In this document: one piece after another, positions 4,503 through 51,631 of the stretch
Numbering within the stretch: the stretch's first letter is position 1
Layout of the letters: each line of letters begins with the position of its first letter
Assembly: GCA_947478005.1 (NCBI GenBank)
Contig: CANJVG010000010.1
Coordinates: 1-54,364 of the forward strand
Origin: Bacteroidota bacterium
GTDB taxonomy: Bacteria; Bacteroidota; Bacteroidia; Chitinophagales; LD1
Reading direction: 5' to 3'
Length of the DNA stretch: 54,364 nucleotides
Notes under the pieces: generated by a model
Seen by the model: only the letters and a program-made list of their open reading frames with translations
Databases searched by the model: none
Told to the model about the DNA's origin: nothing
Program-made: the position numbers and the translations under genes

Positions 4503-7001
4503 TTAGAAACCTGGATAGATACCTAGCTTTACGGCAAAGTTAGCGGCATTGGGATTGTCTCGGTAGGTACAGCGCCAGTAAAAGCCTAACTGAAACAGAT
4601 TGAGAATGTTTTCTAAACCTACTCCTACTTCTACATAAGGAATCGGTCCGGGCACGCGGATATCGGAGGGCAAAGTGATGAGCGAGGCGTTCTTGCTACT
4701 GTAGCCGCCAAACAATGCCTTGCATTGAATGAATTCGCGCATGTGCAACTTGCTGATGCCCGGGATGCGGTTGAGGAAAAAACCATCGAAGTAGTGTTCC
4801 CACCACAGCATGATGAATTTATCGGAAACAAACTCGAAGGGAGCCGCCACTTGCAGCGTAAGGTCATCGCGAACGAAGCTTAAATTGCTGGAAGAGATAT
4901 TGGAAACAGGGTAAGGTGAGTTGCCGAAGATGTAACCTGCGCGGGCAAAGATTTTAGAATACCCAATTACGGGCAATTGCCAGCGGTGTTTGAACTGCAA
5001 CATCAGTTTCTGATAAGTATAGTTGCCTCCGAATAATTTGTTTTCGAAACCAAAGGCGAACTTGAGGGTTATGCTGGGGGTTCGCGTTTGCAAAGGATAA
5101 CGATAGGTGTAGCTTTCGAAGTAATAATCAGTTTTGCAGTAGCGTATTTCGCCCGAAATTTCGGTGGTGGTTATTTGCGGTATGTTGCGGGTGATGCCTG
5201 CATTGTCGGTTCTTGAAAAAGAGAAGGCGCTCGGAATGGAATAGAAGGTTTTGTTGGATAGAACCAATTTGGTTGACAGGCCTTTGATCCAATCTCTTTC
5301 ATAATAGAAGTTGATTTGCCTTGTCTTCATCACTTTGCTAAGGGTCGCTCCGCTGATGAGGGTGAGCACGTTATCATAAGAGGCATAGGAGTCTTCATTG
5401 CCCAGAATAAACATGTCGTTGATGTATTCAGCCTCGATAGCGTGCCAGCGCTGGTAGCGAGATGGAAGCAGGAAGCGCAGATTGGCCACATACTTTATGG
5501 CATGGTCTTTAGTTCCATAAGCCACATAGCCACCCGTGAAGAATTTGTCGCTGATTTGGCGGTTGGTGTAGATGCCGAGGCGAAGGCGCCAGCCCTCTAC
5601 ATTGTTTCGGCTGGCTATGTGGTAGAGCCTGCCGAAATCTACAGGGCCGCATTTGACATTGGAGGTGGTGAGCAGGTTGGTAAAGAACTTAAAGGCCTTG
5701 AAAGCGGGCACATGCTGCACAGAATCGAAGTGTTTGTACACTAAACGCTCGGCTGTGCTGAGCGTGTCGAGGCGCATGGTGTCGATGTAAGCGCGGTTCT
5801 TTTTATAAACGTCTCCATCTACGATATCATCTTTGCTGGCCCAGATTGAATCGGGGGCGGTTTGATGCAAAGAGATGTCGCTGCGCGTAGTTTTCTTCTC
5901 GATGCGGATAGCAAGTTTGTTGGGATTTTTTAAAAGATTGCCTTCGAGCAACATATCCTCATTGGTGAGCATCCAATGGGTTGAATCTACCAGATTAAAG
6001 GTTTGTTCGAGGGTGAGGTCGTAGATATAATTGAGGTTGGCCTTCTCATTTGGCTTATAAGAAATGAATTTGATGCCCCAGGTAGCCGAATCAATCAATG
6101 CATAGCCTTTTTCACATAAATCTTCTTTCACCCGCCCCACAAAATTGAGCTTATAGGTGGTGCGCCCGTTGGGATGGGTGGTGTCCATTACATGATAATT
6201 GTAAACTCCTTCGGCACCAAACGAAAATGGCGAGATAAAGGATTTCTCCAGCACAATATGCACGCTTTCGTAGGCATCAGTAACATCGAAATGGTAGCCA
6301 ATGAGCTTTACCCACAATGGGTCGGGCAGGCCCGACATGCGGTTGTAGCGAAAGAGGTTGACTCTGCGCTGTGGTTTCTTGCGGAAGTACACTTCCTTCA
6401 ATTGTTCCTGCACAAACAAGGGGAAATATCTTCTGCCCAAAGGCGTGGAATCGGGTTTTTCGAAGAAGAACTTGTAGGGTTTGAAGAAGTTGGCGTTCAG
6501 AAACTTGTCGGTGGGGTTCAGCACCGAGTAAATCATTTTAGAATACTCTTTGAAATGAAAACTATCGTTGGCTTCGGCCCTATTGAACTCCCTGTTTCGC
6601 TGCACAGCATGGAAAATGAACAAAGCCGCGGTGTCTATTTCGCGTTTTTGTTTACGCTTTTTGGGTTTCACGACTACCTCTTTCAAGTTTACATCAATGG
6701 CACTCAGCTCTATGGATAATTTGTTGATTGTTCCGGGCGTAACAGGCACTTCAACGGTTTGATAACCGATAAGCGACACCACGAGGGTCTTGGGTCTTAG
6801 AACAGAACTGATTTTGAAGTTGCCGGCTGTGTTGCTACCGATGGCGCCTACCGTTCCTTTGAAACGGATATTGGCATAATCGATGCCCTTTCGGGTGGTT
6901 TTGTCTATTACTTTTCCGGTAGCAATGGTGGGCGACTGTGCAAAACCCGAATGGGCAAACAAACTGAGAAGAAAGACAAAAAATAATTTCGAATAGTTCA
7001 T
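4503..7001 (-). CDS. DUF5686 outer-membrane protein with carboxypeptidase-like regulatory domain
   Basis: An 832-residue envelope protein. It has a signal peptide (1-21, ending SGFAQ), then a CarboxypepD_reg-like beta-sandwich (about 25-110: ATGKVIDKTTRKGIDYANI), a basic linker (KPKKRKQKR), and a long DUF5686 region. The C-terminal half is rich in aromatic beta-strands and ends in GF, as in an outer-membrane barrel. This architecture is common in Bacteroidota and resembles the N-terminal plug extension of TonB-dependent receptors, but no TonB plug domain was seen. It has no catalytic motif and the function is unknown. A single-gene unit is likely because both neighbours lie more than 140 bp away. 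Confidence 0.85.
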   Translation of the reverse strand: MNYSKLFFVFLLSLFAHSGFAQSPTIATGKVIDKTTRKGIDYANIRFKGTVGAIGSNTAGNFKISSVLRPKTLVVSLIGYQTVEVPVTPGTINKLSIELSAIDVNLKEVVVKPKKRKQKREIDTAALFIFHAVQRNREFNRAEANDSFHFKEYSKMIYSVLNPTDKFLNANFFKPYKFFFEKPDSTPLGRRYFPLFVQEQLKEVYFRKKPQRRVNLFRYNRMSGLPDPLWVKLIGYHFDVTDAYESVHIVLEKSFISPFSFGAEGVYNYHVMDTTHPNGRTTYKLNFVGRVKEDLCEKGYALIDSATWGIKFISYKPNEKANLNYIYDLTLEQTFNLVDSTHWMLTNEDMLLEGNLLKNPNKLAIRIEKKTTRSDISLHQTAPDSIWASKDDIVDGDVYKKNRAYIDTMRLDTLSTAERLVYKHFDSVQHVPAFKAFKFFTNLLTTSNVKCGPVDFGRLYHIASRNNVEGWRLRLGIYTNRQISDKFFTGGYVAYGTKDHAIKYVANLRFLLPSRYQRWHAIEAEYINDMFILGNEDSYASYDNVLTLISGATLSKVMKTRQINFYYERDWIKGLSTKLVLSNKTFYSIPSAFSFSRTDNAGITRNIPQITTTEISGEIRYCKTDYYFESYTYRYPLQTRTPSITLKFAFGFENKLFGGNYTYQKLMLQFKHRWQLPVIGYSKIFARAGYIFGNSPYPVSNISSSNLSFVRDDLTLQVAAPFEFVSDKFIMLWWEHYFDGFFLNRIPGISKLHMREFIQCKALFGGYSSKNASLITLPSDIRVPGPIPYVEVGVGLENILNLFQLGFYWRCTYRDNPNAANFAVKLGIYPGF

Positions 7002-7505: not shown

Positions 7506-7840
7506 TATCGAGGGCGGAATTTTGGCAATCGAGGGTGAAACTTTCAAAAACGAGGGCGGAATTGTGACAAACAGGACTGAAACAATCGCATACTGGACCT
7601 AAATTTTGACAAACGGGACTGTAATAATCAAAAACGGGACCGAAATAATCAAAAATGGGACGAAAAATTGACAATCACTGCTGAAAATTTCAAAAACACT
7701 GCCGAAAAAATCAGAAATCAGGCTAAAATTTTGGAAGAAAAAGCCAAAGCAATGACAAATCAGGCCAAAATACTGAAAGAATAGGCCAAGGTCGTGGCAA
7801 ATCTGGCCAAAACTTTGAAAAACAAGGCCAACTAAATGCA
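7506..7840. repeat. 21-bp intergenic tandem array A (16 units)
   Basis: Sixteen head-to-tail units, each 21 bp except one of 20 bp (7653-7672). A typical unit reads AAACGGGACC followed by GAAATAATCAA. The units drift along the array: the core is GAGGGCGG in the first units, GGGAC in the middle and CAGGCC or TGGCC in the last five. The array fills most of the gap between the adhesin gene and the ferredoxin gene, both on the minus strand. Its last unit runs into the adhesin terminator. Open minus-strand frames over it are explained by the 7-codon period. Confidence 0.9.
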
Positions 7841-7900: not shown

Positions 7901-10900
7901 TTATCGAATCAGCGTAACGCTGCCTTTGCGCTCTATCTTTTTATCGTCCAGGTAGGTAATTTTTACCCAATAGCTAAACACCGAAGCGGTTTGCATTTCG
8001 CCTTCGAAAGTTCCATCCCATCCTTCGAGTTGATTGTTGGTTTCAAACACCTTTTCGCCCCATCGGTTAAAAATTTTCAGGTCAATGAACTTGATTCCTT
8101 TGCCAAACACTTTAAACTCCTCATTGTTTCCATCGCCATTGGGCGAAAAAGAGTTGGGAATAAACACCGGCAAAGTATCTTCCACCAAAATGGTTAAACC
8201 CGTGGTGGCCACACACTGACCATTGTAAGTAACCGTGAGGCTGTATCTCGTTTCGCGGCTATAAGGCGTCACCAATGGGTCGGCACAGTCCACACAGTTA
8301 AGCGCCACGCCCGGAGTCCAGTTATAAGACACTATGCTGGAAGCAGGAAAAGGAGAAAAAGTAGTAATCAATCGGATAGACTCACCCAATTGCAACACCG
8401 TATCGTGCGGAAACACATCTACCACACCGTTTTCGGGTTCGGGCACCACAATAGTCAGTTGTGTGCTGCATCCCCAATAGTTGGTACCAACCACCACATG
8501 CTCACCGGCACTCAAATTGTAGAAATCGCCCGAGCTATTCGGGTTTCCGTTATCTATACTATAGGCAAAAGGGGTGTTTTGCAATGGCCCTCCCGACACA
8601 TGGATGGCTCCGTCAGTATAACTGCTGCCAAAGCAGGAAGTAGAATCAATAGTATAAGAATAAACATCACCCACCGGGGCCGGAATGAAGACAGGCGTGG
8701 TGGCCGGGCAACTGTTGGCATCGGTCACCGCTATGGAATAGTTGCCGGTGTTTAAAGCTGTAAAAAGTCCGGTCGAATTGGTTTGAAGGGCCACTGCATT
8801 TTGCAAAAGCGTATAACTAAAACCAGGTGAGCCGCCTGTAGCCACAGCTGTAATGGTGCCGTCAATACTTCCCGAGCAGGTTACCTGAGTAGAAGTAGCC
8901 GTTACCTGCAATGCCGATGGCTCATTAACCACCGTAGCGGCTGAAGTATTGCAATTGTGCGCGTCAGTAACAGTAACACTATAGCCGCCTTTGGTTAAAC
9001 CGGTAATGGTGGATGTAGTTTGCGCCACCGACCATGCATAAGCATAAGGAGAATTTCCGCCTGATACCACCGCATCCACACTTCCGTCATTTCCCTGAAA
9101 ACAACGCACATCATGCGGAGTAAGATTGACCGAAAGAGCAGCAGGCTCGGCAATAAGAACCGTAGTGGCGACCGTGCATAAGTTAGCATCGGTTACAACC
9201 ACGTTGTAACTATTAGCCGCAAGACCGGTTTGAGGATTCGAACCGGAAATTCCGTTCCATGTAAAAGTATAAGTACCTACTCCCCCACTTGGTGTCACTT
9301 CTCCGCTGCCATCCGCCAGGCCGGCACAGCTTACATCGGTAATATTCGGTGTGCCGAATGTAATAGCCGTGGGTTCATTGATGATATTGGAAGTGCTTAT
9401 GGAGCAACCATTGGCATCGGTAACGGTGGTGGTGTAAGTATTGGCCGATAAATTAGAAGCAGCAGTATTATTCAACAAAACATTATGACTCCAGCTAAAA
9501 GAATCCACGCCCGTTCCCCCCGAAACATTAAGGATAATAGAACCGGTGGCCAATCCATTGCATAAAACAGGAGCTACCGTGGCCGCTCCAAATGAAAGAG
9601 CTGTTGCCGGTTGAGTAACCGGATAAGAAGCGGCAACCGTGCAGTTATGAAAATCAACTACCGTTAGGAAATAGGTGTTTGCCGCCAAACCATTAATAGT
9701 TTGTGAAGCGCCTGAATTAGGATTCCATGTATAACCGTAAGGGCTGGTTCCTCCGGAAGGGTTGGCTGTGATAGAGCCATTACTTCCATTAAAACAAGAA
9801 ACATTGGTAATCGTAGAGGGATTCAAAGAAAGGGCAACAGGCTGACCGACCGTAAAACTTGCCGACTGCGAACAACTGGTATTATCTGTAACGGTGATGG
9901 TATAGCTACCTGCCGGCAAAGAAGACAAGTCTTCGGTAATAGCCGCGTTATAATTCCAAGCATAACCCAGTGGAGAAACCCCGTTGGTAACCGTAACGTC
10001 AATGCTACCATCGCTGCTGCCATTACACAAGGCATCAGTAGCTGCTCCGCTAATCAAAATTTGCGGAGGACTATTGACTGTAATGGAAGTAGTAGCTATA
10101 CACAGGCTATCATCGGTTACGGTCACGACATAAGCCTGGGCGGAAAGCCCGGTAGCCGTTTGAGTAAGCTGAGAGGGGGTAGTATTCCAAGCATAGCTGT
10201 ACGGCAAAGAACCACCTGTAGGCCGAGCCGTAATACTTCCGTTTGCAGAGCCAAAACAAGTAGTATTCACTACCGTAGGAGGGTTGAAAGTAACGGCAGT
10301 AGCAGGTTGAATCAAAGCATAACTGGTGGATAAACTGCATCCGTTTACATCCGTAACCGTAACAAGGTAATTTCCTGCCGCTAAACTACCGGCATTAGGC
10401 TGATGTAACTGCGCGTCATGGCTCCAAGTGTAGGTATAACCTCCCGATCCGCCCGAAACAGAAACAGTAATGTACCCGTCATTGCCATTAAAGCAGGCTA
10501 TGTTTTTCTTTTGCGCTGCATTAAAAATTAGAGCCGTAGGCTGTGTAATATTCAAATTGCTAACCTTGGGGCAACCGTTCCCATCTGTTACAGTTACCGA
10601 GTAAGCTCCGAAAGTGAGATTAGATACAGTATCATTATTGGGCAAACCATTGCTCCAGCTAAAATTATAACCGCTACCGCTGCCTCCAACAGGGTAAACA
10701 ATAATTTGTCCGTTATTTCCCCCGTTGCAATAAATATTGGTAATAGACTGAGTAAGTGTTAAAGCGGTAGGTTCGGTTACAACGGCCGTTGCACTGCCAG
10801 AACATCCCAGCGCATCTGTAACGGTAACTGAGTAAATTCCCGGGATTAAGTTTTTAGCGGAGTCAACATTGCCCGTTCCGGCATTAGCGCTCCACGCATA

Positions 10901-12148
10901 AGTATAAGGGGCGGAACCATTACCAACGGCTTTTACCTTTCCATTGTTAGCTCCGTTACAGGTAACATTGATAACCGTAGTAACTACAGGCAAATTGACA
11001 ATATTTACCCGCACGGTATCCAGGTGCAAACAAGCACCGCCATTCATTGTGACCACATAACTGGTAGACACACTCGGGCTGACTACTATGGAATCCGTAT
11101 TTCCCAAATTGGCTCCTCCTAATATTTTCCATGAAAAAGCCGCAGGCCCCGGAATTACAGAACCTATTACCGAAGCTTTTAAGGTATTATTATGATTAGG
11201 GCACGAACTAATGTCTACTCCGGCACTTACCCGCGAATTATCTACAAGCACGTTTACCGTATCTGTACCTGTGCATCCTGATGTGTCAGAAACAGAAATA
11301 ATGTAGTTGGTTGAAGTAACGGGATTGGCGCTGGTAACCGAAGTATCTGGAATGGTAACGGCATTTATTCCGATTGATGGCGTCCAAACAACGGTATAAT
11401 CGTTGATATCAGGAACGCAGTAATTGAATTTTACGTTAGGCCGTAAAGAAGATGAAGCCGGTGCTACAGCGGTTCCACAATAATCAATATTTCCCATAAT
11501 GTACAGATAACTTGTAAATCCGGTATTGGTACACTCTGCTTTATTATTTTGACTTCCGAAGGTTACCGGATTATACCAGCAAACATCCACTATAAGATTT
11601 GAAACGCCATCCCAGGCAAAAGAAGTAGTAAGACTAAAACTATTTAGCCATCCTGTTTGAGGCATAAAAGGTGTTGCTGAGGTGTACACAGTAGTCAAAT
11701 TATTCTCCCAGGTTGTCAAACTTGAGGCGCTAGTACATGCCATTTTAATAGAGAAGTTTGACAAAACCGAATTACTATTAAAAATCTGGAGGTTAAAAGC
11801 CAAGTTAGTCAGCACACAAGGACCTCCTAAACCAGAAAATAACTCGGCAGCCGTATACAGCATTTGATTGCGGCCGCTTTTGGTAAAATTTCCAAGCAGC
11901 GAAGGGGGTTGCAATTGGCTGCCCGTTTGAGCGGTGTTGCCACTTCCAATTTGCGACAAATTACTACTCCCGTTACATTTTACAGAAGGTCCGCACGAAA
12001 CAGGAACGGCATTTGCAGACAGTTTTATCTGCTGACCAGGACAAATAACTGGGAGGTCAACAGAAGCATTAACAGGGATTGTACATTGCGCAAATAGTAG
12101 ATCATTAGCGCCAAGCAAAAACAAAATCAACAAATAGGTATTTTTCAT
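7901..12148 (-). CDS. SprB-repeat T9SS-secreted adhesin (type B sorting domain)
   Basis: A 1415-residue exported surface protein. It has a signal peptide (1-20, ending LLFAQ) and an N-terminal region with several cysteines (CTIP, PVICPG). A PKD/Ig-like segment follows at about 240-390. About ten SprB-type repeats of 75-85 residues then run from about 390 to 1250. Each has a C-x-G/N-x2-D/N-G core (for example VTCNGANNG), then Y-x-W, then YSVTVTDxxGC. The last 90 residues are the gliding-motility-associated CHU_C domain (FIPNSFSPNGDGNNEEF, FNRWGEKVF, WDGT), the type B signal for T9SS export. SprB repeats occur in gliding adhesins of Flavobacterium, so surface adhesion or motility is a reasonable inference. 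The repeats differ enough at DNA level to avoid collapse. Confidence 0.92.
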   Translation of the reverse strand: MKNTYLLILFLLGANDLLFAQCTIPVNASVDLPVICPGQQIKLSANAVPVSCGPSVKCNGSSNLSQIGSGNTAQTGSQLQPPSLLGNFTKSGRNQMLYTAAELFSGLGGPCVLTNLAFNLQIFNSNSVLSNFSIKMACTSASSLTTWENNLTTVYTSATPFMPQTGWLNSFSLTTSFAWDGVSNLIVDVCWYNPVTFGSQNNKAECTNTGFTSYLYIMGNIDYCGTAVAPASSSLRPNVKFNYCVPDINDYTVVWTPSIGINAVTIPDTSVTSANPVTSTNYIISVSDTSGCTGTDTVNVLVDNSRVSAGVDISSCPNHNNTLKASVIGSVIPGPAAFSWKILGGANLGNTDSIVVSPSVSTSYVVTMNGGACLHLDTVRVNIVNLPVVTTVINVTCNGANNGKVKAVGNGSAPYTYAWSANAGTGNVDSAKNLIPGIYSVTVTDALGCSGSATAVVTEPTALTLTQSITNIYCNGGNNGQIIVYPVGGSGSGYNFSWSNGLPNNDTVSNLTFGAYSVTVTDGNGCPKVSNLNITQPTALIFNAAQKKNIACFNGNDGYITVSVSGGSGGYTYTWSHDAQLHQPNAGSLAAGNYLVTVTDVNGCSLSTSYALIQPATAVTFNPPTVVNTTCFGSANGSITARPTGGSLPYSYAWNTTPSQLTQTATGLSAQAYVVTVTDDSLCIATTSITVNSPPQILISGAATDALCNGSSDGSIDVTVTNGVSPLGYAWNYNAAITEDLSSLPAGSYTITVTDNTSCSQSASFTVGQPVALSLNPSTITNVSCFNGSNGSITANPSGGTSPYGYTWNPNSGASQTINGLAANTYFLTVVDFHNCTVAASYPVTQPATALSFGAATVAPVLCNGLATGSIILNVSGGTGVDSFSWSHNVLLNNTAASNLSANTYTTTVTDANGCSISTSNIINEPTAITFGTPNITDVSCAGLADGSGEVTPSGGVGTYTFTWNGISGSNPQTGLAANSYNVVVTDANLCTVATTVLIAEPAALSVNLTPHDVRCFQGNDGSVDAVVSGGNSPYAYAWSVAQTTSTITGLTKGGYSVTVTDAHNCNTSAATVVNEPSALQVTATSTQVTCSGSIDGTITAVATGGSPGFSYTLLQNAVALQTNSTGLFTALNTGNYSIAVTDANSCPATTPVFIPAPVGDVYSYTIDSTSCFGSSYTDGAIHVSGGPLQNTPFAYSIDNGNPNSSGDFYNLSAGEHVVVGTNYWGCSTQLTIVVPEPENGVVDVFPHDTVLQLGESIRLITTFSPFPASSIVSYNWTPGVALNCVDCADPLVTPYSRETRYSLTVTYNGQCVATTGLTILVEDTLPVFIPNSFSPNGDGNNEEFKVFGKGIKFIDLKIFNRWGEKVFETNNQLEGWDGTFEGEMQTASVFSYWVKITYLDDKKIERKGSVTLIR

Positions 12149-13772: not shown

Positions 13773-13885
13773 ACTAGCGGTTAAAGATTTTGCTTCCCAT
13801 GTTTGCTCTCCCATATAAAAAATTAGTTTCGAGCCCGCAAATTTCAAAAACAACTACTTACATAGTCGAAAAACAAAGTCAGAAT

Positions 13886-14848
13886 ATGAGTGCTCTCTTT
13901 AAAGAATCTGCCAATAGAATTGAACTGCATTATTTCTTCTCCGATAATTCACATAGCATGAATGCCCACATTCGCAACAAATGCGAAGGCAATCTACTGG
14001 GTATTTTAAAGGAGATTTCATCAGTACTTAATGCACGTGTACAAATAGAAACCGAAGCTTTAACCGAAGGTGGATTAAAGGAACGCTTTGTGCTATTGGG
14101 CAAAAGCGACTATTTGAAAAGCCTAGTTACCTCGGTGTTTCATTATGTGCTGCCGCTGGAAGTAGATATTGAAAAGACAGTAAACGAAGAGAACAAAGAA
14201 GAAACCAAACAGCGAATAGAAAACCTAAGAAAAGAACTTCGGGAGCAGGAAAGAGACAGCGATGCTAAACTGGATAAGGAAAATATAGCCACTCTGTTTC
14301 GTAATAATCTTAAAATCATAAAGCTAAAATCGAACTTCTATCGCCAGTTGAATGGTTGCGAAAAGGTGACGAAGTTCTCGGTGCAATTGGTGGATGCAAA
14401 GGGCGAATACACCGGCAAGGTAAACACCATCAACCGCAAGCGTTTCGACACTTATATGCTGATAGCCGATACCCTTAAACCGGAACTGGATGAAAAAGCG
14501 GTTATCGAAATTGTTTCGCCAGTGTTGAAGACCGGTAACTACAAGTGGAAGGGCATTTACCTGCAAACGGGTAAAATCATCAACTTCTCGATGAAGGATA
14601 TTGATTTCAAAAATGAAGTGGTGAGCCAAAGCATGGCGTTCAAAAACGGAACCCGCATTGAGTGCAGCCTCGAAAGCACACGCAAAATGACAGAGCTTGG
14701 GGAGATTTCAATAACCGGTTACTCCGTATTAGTAGTCAGCAAGAAACTCGATGACCAGGTGGTGACTGAAATGCCTAAGGTAAGAACCGTGCCTAAGAAA
14801 AAGGAACCCGAGTTGAAGCAACTCGATTTGTTCGGCAGCTTGTTTTAA
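13886..14848 (+). CDS. Unknown protein ending in a sliding-clamp-binding motif
   Basis: I do not recognise this protein. From the ATG at 13886 it is 320 residues; in-frame starts at 13799 (ATG) and 13790 (TTG) would add an unconserved-looking leader. The N-terminal region (about 1-105) contains ELHYFFSDNSHSMNAHIRNK and a later TEGGLKERF. A charged, probably coiled-coil stretch follows (about 107-140: EENKEETKQRIENLRKEL). The rest looks like a beta-rich domain. Near the C-terminus QLDLF (312-316) matches the bacterial beta-clamp-binding consensus QL(S/D)LF, preceded by a basic linker (VPKKKEPELK). This suggests a link to replication, repair or anti-phage defence. It is monocistronic and followed 25 bp later by array B. 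Confidence 0.75.
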   Translation: MSALFKESANRIELHYFFSDNSHSMNAHIRNKCEGNLLGILKEISSVLNARVQIETEALTEGGLKERFVLLGKSDYLKSLVTSVFHYVLPLEVDIEKTVNEENKEETKQRIENLRKELREQERDSDAKLDKENIATLFRNNLKIIKLKSNFYRQLNGCEKVTKFSVQLVDAKGEYTGKVNTINRKRFDTYMLIADTLKPELDEKAVIEIVSPVLKTGNYKWKGIYLQTGKIINFSMKDIDFKNEVVSQSMAFKNGTRIECSLESTRKMTELGEISITGYSVLVVSKKLDDQVVTEMPKVRTVPKKKEPELKQLDLFGSLF

Positions 14849-14873: not shown

Positions 14874-15167
14874 TTGATTTTAGTTTGTAGGTGTTTGACT
14901 TTGGTTTGATGGTCTTTGATTTTAGTTTAAGTGTGTTTTACTTTGGTTTGTGGCCGCTTGATTTTAATTTAAAGGTCATTGACTTTGGTTTAAGGGTCCT
15001 TGATTTTAGTTTACGGCTGTTTGATTTTAATTTAAGGGTGTTTTACTTTGGTTTATAACTGTTTGATTTTGGTTTGAGGGTGTTTGACTTTGGTTTGTGG
15101 CTGTTTGATTTTAATTTAAAGGTCATTGACTTTGGTTTATAACTGCTTGACTTTGGTAAAATGGGAG
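14874..15167. repeat. 21-bp intergenic tandem array B (14 exact units)
   Basis: Fourteen consecutive units of exactly 21 bp with no indel. Each has a conserved 13-nt core TTKAYTTTRRTTT and an 8-nt variable tail. Only four core words occur (TTGATTTTAGTTT, TTGACTTTGGTTT, TTGATTTTAATTT, TTTACTTTGGTTT). Tails such as AAAGGTCA, GTGGCTGT and ATAACTGT/C recur in different combinations. Units 4-6 and 11-13 nearly repeat as a block, a shift of 147 bp. The array begins 25 bp after the clamp-motif gene and lies between convergent genes. Stops interrupt its frames, so it is not coding. Confidence 0.93.
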
Positions 15168-31400: not shown

Positions 31401-31924
31401 AACAATTAGTTTTTTACTGGTTTACAGTATTTGATTTTTTTTCGGCAAAATTCAATACGTCCTTCTTGCAACATTTCTCAATATTTTAAAAGCAACGTTT
31501 TCTCTTAATAGGAAACAAGACGCTGTTTTGAACTTATAGAAAATATTTATGCAAATTTTCCAATCATTTCCTTATTAGTAGTCTACTCATTCCCTTCAAT
31601 TTTCCCAAATTTAGATTCCCTATGTCCAGATGTACTGCAACGTTACGAAAAGCCAGTCCCCATCTTCTTTTAGTTTTCTAATATCTCACCAAATGTCACA
31701 TTCTGACCATTGTTAATTTACATGGGACGAATATTTTCCAAATATAAAATGTCTCGAAGAAGAAAGAACAATTAAAAACTAAAATTTATTGACAGTATTT
31801 CAACTTCTCGATTTGTTAGGTGGTGTTTATGCCTTTTTAGAGTGTGCAAAATTAAAAGCGCTGGTTTTTTTGTGTCAGCAAGTGTGTGAGCAAAACCAAA
31901 CCCGTTCCCCTAATTTCGATACAT
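31401..31924. other. Upstream region of the R-M operon
   Basis: About 520 bp, strongly A/T-rich, without a credible ORF. No TAnnTTYG element was found within 70 bp of the methyltransferase start. The last 20 bases before array C (about 31904-31924) look like one degenerate array unit. Confidence 0.5.
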
Positions 31925-32155
31925 CAAAAACGGTTTTTGATATATGAAAAACCGAAAATGATTATAAGAAAATGGTTTTCTTATATAGAAAAACCAAAAA
32001 TGATATATCAAAAATGCTTTTTGATATTAAGAAAACGGATTTTGTAATTAGAAAAATGAATTTCTTATATAAGAAAATGCTTTTCTTATATAGAAAAACG
32101 CTTTTTGATTATAAGAAATTGGATTTCTTATATAAAAAAACGGTTTTTGGTGTTA
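31925..32155. repeat. 21-bp intergenic tandem array C (11 exact units)
   Basis: Eleven units of exactly 21 bp without indels, plus partial units at each edge. A typical unit is GAAAAACGG then TTTTTGATATAT: an A tract, a 3-4-nt G/C-containing centre, and a T tract. Second halves are drawn from a few words (TTTTTGATATAT, TTTTCTTATATA, ATTTCTTATATA, AAAATGATATAT). The array lies between the start of the R-M operon and the end of the PLP-enzyme gene, both on the minus strand. A plus-strand frame stays open over it only because of the 7-codon period. Confidence 0.92.
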
Positions 32156-32291
32156 AGAAAATTGAAAAATACAGGTCCAAAAACAGAGAAACTATTGAAC
32201 AGGAGGCTTTTTAGTGCAAAATCTGCCCTAAAAAGACGAAGGGAGGAATATTTGGTTCATCTTTCCGTTTCCCCTCTAAACTCCTCGTTCA

Positions 32292-51199: not shown

Positions 51200-51316
51200 G
51201 GGAGGACGTTTGTCTGAACTCCCGATGGGTCGGGACAGGTTATGATTTTTGTGATTGAAGGATTAAAGGCCTGATTAGATGCGGGTCTGCTTAAACCGAG
51301 GGTTCGGTTATTGGCA

Positions 51317-51631
51317 CAGAGACGTCAATAATCATCTCAGAGATGCCAATAATCATCACAGAGATGCTAATAATCATCTCAGAGACAGCAATAATCGTCA
51401 CAGAGATGCCAATAATCATCTCAGAGAGAGCAATAATCGTCACAGAGATGCCAATAATCATCTCAGAGAGAGCGATAATCGTCACAGAGATGCCAATAAT
51501 CATCCCAGAGATGCCAATAATCGTCACAGAGACGCCAATAATCATCTCAGAGACAGCAATAATCGTCACAGAGACGCCAATAATCATCTCAGAGAGAGCA
51601 ATAATCGTCACAGAGATGCCAATAATCGTCA
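51317..51631. repeat. 21-bp intergenic tandem array D (15 exact units)
   Basis: Fifteen units of exactly 21 bp with no indels. Each begins CAGAGA, has a variable triplet (TGC, CGC, CAG, GAG, CGT), then AATAATC, and ends ATCT, ATCA or GTCA. ATCT-ending and GTCA-ending units mostly alternate, so a 42-bp dimer is visible. This is the most homogeneous of the four arrays. It sits between divergent genes (helicase and the SBBP-type protein). Several long frames on both strands are open across it because of the 7-codon period. Confidence 0.95.

Follow-up and report, generated by a model that had tools for sequence, protein, structure and literature searches.

The locus

An open reading frame of 320 amino acids plus stop lies at 13886-14848 on the forward strand of the window (the whole 54,364-nucleotide stretch of DNA that was analysed), where the initial annotation had placed it, and its stop codon is at 14846-14848. 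The start codon, ATG at 13886, is kept in relatives from the same genus, whose alignment opens with M-S-x-x-F-K-E; upstream of this ATG, the frame stays open back to a TTG at 13790. The gene stands alone. Its 5′ neighbours, on the opposite strand, are two sulphur-transport (YeeE/YedE-type) genes, and its 3′ neighbours, again on the opposite strand, encode a GHMP kinase and a diphosphomevalonate decarboxylase. The G+C content of the gene is 0.420, against 0.419 for the window. The gene and the parts of its product are listed below.

13886..14848, forward strand: PDC-S42 (LAPAL / phrog_3243) family protein, from its match to PADLOC PDLC05016 (E=7.7e-96) and its conserved ATG
13913..14101, forward strand: predicted ferredoxin-like domain, first part (residues ~10-72), strand-helix-strand-strand, with HYFFSDNSHSMNAHIRNK; from AlphaFold
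14108..14254, forward strand: predicted helical insert (residues ~75-123); from AlphaFold and hydropathy
14336..14434, forward strand: predicted ferredoxin-like domain, second part (residues ~151-183); from the alignment and AlphaFold
14471..14755, forward strand: predicted OB-like, SSB-like domain (residues ~196-290); from the VIA top match, the SSB Rim1
14756..14845, forward strand: predicted disordered Lys-rich tail (residues 291-320); pLDDT <50
14819..14833, forward strand: QLDLF, predicted beta-clamp-binding motif (residues 312-316); from alignments and the published consensus

A repeat of 21/42-bp period follows the gene at 14874-15157, as had been noted. It was dropped as a part of any system with the gene, because relatives have no array beside theirs. 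Four largely degenerate arrays with a period of 21 bp (42 bp) occur in the window, at 7509-7831, 14874-15157, 31914-32161 and 51315-51631, and comparable 21-bp-period arrays in three other genomes of the genus (L009, L010 and L012) do not adjoin the gene. The window also encodes, at 7901-12148, a repeat-rich surface protein of 1415 amino acids whose C-terminal end looks, by eye, like the gliding-motility type.

Family membership

Apart from its C-terminus, the protein had been described as unrecognised. This description does not hold, as residues 8-316 match positions 7-317 of the 320 in PADLOC profile PDLC05016 (PDC-S42), and all 12 divergent members that were aligned match PDC-S42 as well. 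PDC-S42 is a computational candidate phage-defence family. The NCBIfam model LAPAL_fam (NF053583) covers only the C-terminal two thirds of the window protein and scores 43.7 bits, under its curated cut-off of 60 bits; one relative, L032, reaches 64.5 bits. The C-terminal two thirds are also matched by phrog_3243. ORF19 of Lactobacillus phage A2 is a strong phrog_3243 member and matches another PDC-S42 profile at 6.6e-77. Since ORF19 belongs to both, PDC-S42, LAPAL_fam and phrog_3243 are, as judged by their profiles, one superfamily under three names. The full-length match to PDC-S42 and a C-terminal motif common to the members join the window protein to this superfamily. Searches of the window protein against Pfam and against the sequences of solved structures returned nothing meaningful.

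NCBIfam names LAPAL_fam a putative phage structural protein. This name looks wrong, because in four phages the gene lies near the integrase and outside the structural genes: it adjoins the integrase in the temperate phages A2, LmoS_188 and PMBT6 and is about 1.4 kb from it in Bbif-1. A virion structural protein was ruled out on the strength of this place in the lysogeny module. In the open-licence literature we found no report of an experimentally tested PDC-S42 member, no paper that mentions PDC-S42 or the LAPAL motif by name, and no published description of a clamp motif or OB-like fold in the family.

The C-terminal tail

The protein ends in KQLDLFGSLF; its C-terminus is KKKEPELKQLDLFGSLF, with a Lys-rich stretch just before. 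The initial annotation had read this end as a sliding-clamp-binding QLDLF after a basic flexible linker, and the low pLDDT over residues 291-320 agrees with that description. The bacterial clamp-motif consensus is Q-phi-x-[L/M]-[F/L] or Q-phi-x-[L/M]-x-[F/L] (PMC13254535). All seven sequences aligned from within the genus have QLDLF unchanged. The 12 divergent members are about 31-79% identical to the window protein, with a mean column identity of 45%. Their alignment has 25 invariant columns, Q312 and F316 included, and L315 is nearly invariant; the rest of the tail varies freely.

The last 20 residues of 25 divergent relatives and of 356 neighbouring proteins were searched for the motif. The strict published consensus occurs in 13 of the 25 and 5 of the 356 (Fisher 8e-14, a value that overstates independence because the 25 are related by descent), and in shuffled tails it is found on average 0.34 times in 25, at most 4. 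When loosened at position 2 and at the hydrophobic positions, in a form written after the tails had been seen, the motif occurs in 24 relatives, in 11 neighbouring proteins and, on average, in 2.2 shuffled tails. Two tails read after this form was set, QIEFPF and QNSMF, also fit it. The sole relative without the motif is L040.

A stronger point than the Fisher value is that two classes of clamp peptide alternate at one place, as expected under selection for clamp docking. Some members carry the pentapeptide (QLDLF, QLSLF, QISLF, QIDLF, QLPLF or QLGLF), others the hexapeptide (QLKLDF, QLTLDL, QLQLNL or QIALDL). The DinB of the same genome carries QINLF, and DinB is a known type of clamp client. 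The motif is thus kept in homologues, in a tail predicted to be accessible. Sequence comparison indicates that the motif is not due to chance, and strongly suggests that the tail docks on the DnaN clamp, as predicted.

Predicted structure

AlphaFold models, resting on 11 sequences, a set that excluded relatives from genome searches and annotated records, were made for the window protein (mean pLDDT 69) and for a 36%-identical relative (mean pLDDT 75). In both, a ferredoxin-like domain with a helical insert is followed by an OB-like barrel, and the tail is predicted poorly. The start that the initial annotation had singled out, HYFFSDNSHSMNAHIRNK, occupies residues 15-32 of the protein, within the first ferredoxin-like part. 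The second part opens with the conserved KSNFY (148-152) and contains EKVTK (159-163). Within the insert, a hydrophobic helix (75-88) precedes a charged, coiled-coil-like helix (104-123) that fits the coiled coil noticed earlier. The hydrophobic helix is possibly involved with the membrane; its hydropathy (KD19) is 1.05 in the window protein and rises to 2.18 in relatives, several of which are near 2. The OB-like domain holds an invariant W221-K222-G223.

Fold searches recovered both folds in both models, all at modest scores. The ferredoxin-like part has VIA matches over residues 1-181 with Z <8. For the OB-like barrel, the top VIA match is the mitochondrial SSB Rim1, with Z 7.6 for the window protein and 7.8 for the relative (rmsd 3.2-3.4 over 87-89 residues, about 11% identity). 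The OB assignment is of moderate strength, since Z <8 may reflect merely a common arrangement. Foldseek gave no PDB match with E <0.001. Matches in a viral structure library have no annotated function: the DUF6575 protein A0A8S5QA00, A0A8S5T657, and Q6NE06 of Leptospira phage LE1. With moderate confidence, then, the models describe a ferredoxin-like domain, an OB fold resembling that of SSB and a free C-terminal tail. The likeness to SSB and RPA proteins lies in the predicted OB-like fold; the low Z and identity set the window protein apart from them, as does a tail that is basic with a clamp motif where SSB has an acidic tip. The invariant columns of the 12-member alignment show no obvious catalytic set, which speaks for a binding role rather than an enzymatic one.

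Distribution and gene neighbourhoods

The gene is sparse and patchy, present in 6 of 295 genomes of the class and 9 of 395 of the phylum. In the genus of the window it occurs in 12 of 18 genomes, mostly as an intact single copy of 68-79% identity without defence neighbours. These copies occupy differing places with differing neighbours, none in a defence island. The GHMP kinase found downstream in the window has a strong match in 17 of the 18 genomes; in the genus relatives with both genes listed, it is encoded on a different contig or, in the case of G309, about 207 kb from the gene. The copy in one member of the genus, G300, is only 36% identical. The varied positions and this divergent copy fit gain and movement. 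A distant DNA search found no relative in E. coli genomes.

Elsewhere, defence genes do lie near some homologues. On two viral-collection contigs (L045 and L046) its companions are a small gene of unknown function, an integrase and the two genes of a BamHI-type restriction-modification system. The L053 copy sits within a type I restriction locus, where it adjoins an OLD-like ATPase; the L047 copy adjoins AbiGi, and the L048 copy lies two genes away from one for a large protein that matches a PN-superfamily effector. In L056 the gene directly precedes an integrase. No evident defence neighbours were seen for the copies in the genus, in Vibrio THAF191d, in Parabacteroides or beside RadA in Bacteroidales.

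Several further observations were made in these neighbourhoods. The four temperate phages with the gene in the lysogeny module, close to the integrase, are L065, L066, L067 and L068. The protein between the gene and the integrase in L045 (8970-9404) has 144 amino acids, is of unknown function and has no Pfam match. On the viral contig L047, a weakly DnaN-like protein (clamp middle domain; 4668-5435) is encoded about 3.7 kb from the gene. The large protein of L048 (4048-9434; 1445 amino acids) has a C-terminal phosphorylase (PN-superfamily effector) domain and, by eye, a phosphoribosyltransferase-like N-terminus; a 249-amino-acid protein without Pfam or PADLOC match directly precedes the family gene there. 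The L048 genes are a possible undescribed defence operon.

Discussion

The initial annotation left a choice between a repair factor and a replication-sensing defence protein. We favour phage defence over repair because of PDC-S42 membership, the integrase-side places in prophages and the restriction and Abi neighbours. Family membership, the conserved tail motif and the mobile or defence context are supported by sequence comparison. On balance we lean towards a PDC-S42 phage-defence protein that docks on the clamp, binds single-stranded DNA and arrests replication of the invader, possibly with a link to the membrane.

Such a protein could work as follows. Through QLDLF, the free C-terminal tail would occupy the hydrophobic pocket of DnaN, the sliding clamp. 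The adjacent OB domain, SSB-like in its predicted fold, would encounter the single-stranded DNA that forks expose, most of all when a phage is replicating intensely. Once loaded at the fork, the protein would block or stall the replication of the invader, perhaps through competition with the polymerase for the clamp. More speculatively, the hydrophobic helix towards the N-terminus may couple the replication block to the membrane and to abortive infection. We infer clamp binding itself, single-stranded DNA binding, the membrane step and the trigger, as well as replication arrest, the last from context and family. Several points count against the model: the family is only a computational candidate for defence and is common in the genus of the window outside defence islands, scores of Z <8 also arise from unrelated common arrangements, the helix of the window protein has a KD19 of just 1.05, and L040 lacks the motif.

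It is rather unlikely, in our estimation, that the protein is instead a chromosomal fork-maintenance factor, a clamp-held, SSB-like OB protein that protects forks, restarts them or deals with gaps, and that prophages and plasmids picked up as an accessory replication factor. An OB domain with a clamp motif does resemble replication and repair proteins, most carriers in the genus keep one intact, well-conserved copy away from defence genes, one Bacteroidales genome has the gene directly upstream of a RadA-like ATPase, and an Ewingella plasmid has it near UmuDC and DinI genes. However, a maintenance role sits poorly with the very patchy distribution, the differing chromosomal places among species of one genus, the 36%-identical copy in a member of that genus, the prophage positions beside integrases and the restriction and Abi neighbours.

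RipA, SocB and staphylococcal phage polypeptides all target DnaN, and temperate phages and plasmids carry members of the family. A clamp ligand with which a mobile element restrains host or competitor replication, either as a superinfection or incompatibility factor or as a RipA/SocB-like toxin, rather than sensor-type defence, could therefore be imagined; we consider it improbable, as no conserved antitoxin partner gene was seen adjoining and chromosomes retain the gene stably on its own. Roughly half of the divergent tails (among them QGDLF, QYNLF, QPTLF and QGELNL) miss the strict consensus, mostly at position 2, yet a C-terminal peptide conserved for some purpose other than clamp binding, such as a dimer contact or a protease tag, is quite improbable given the exchange of the two peptide classes at the same place, the enrichment over background and shuffles, and the typical placement of the motif at the end of a disordered tail.

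Returning to clamp-docking phage defence, the nearest functional analogue in the literature found is PdpSau. This prophage-encoded protein joins a membrane helix to an OB fold; it stops the replication of phage DNA and alters membrane polarity, and its authors compare it with AbiP (PMC10127798). PdpSau and AbiP are single-gene systems described as a membrane helix plus an OB fold; the window protein is likewise encoded by a lone gene, and may resemble them in its predicted hydrophobic helix and OB-like fold. Its helix is weakly hydrophobic and internal, whereas that of PdpSau is N-terminal, and sequence likeness is claimed for neither PdpSau nor AbiP. No clamp motif is reported for either in the literature found. 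RipA (a Rosmer toxin) and SocB act on the DnaN clamp, on which the window protein is predicted to dock; unlike it, they are toxins under antitoxin or protease control. We know of no OB domain in RipA or SocB. RipA of S. pneumoniae targets DnaN, with suppressors that map to the clamp pocket (PMC12795458). SocB is named in passages of PMC5422525 and PMC12795458, and the staphylococcal phage polypeptides that target DnaN enter as the entry for reference 54 of PMC10127798.

A wider proposal is tentative, and we hold it with some doubt: a widespread single-gene antiviral system, found on temperate phages, plasmids and chromosomes across at least four phyla, in which an SSB-like module tethered to the universally conserved DnaN clamp senses or arrests phage forks. 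This clamp-tethered, SSB-like antiviral principle was not described in the open-licence literature that we found. If the proposal is true, phage defence, like repair, would use the replication clamp as a docking site, and the NCBIfam name would be misleading. An unnamed candidate defence family thereby gains a testable mechanism with a five-residue handle that includes Q312, L315 and F316. Nearly all members examined end in a peptide of the clamp-docking type, and the family may guard cells by way of the machinery that copies DNA.
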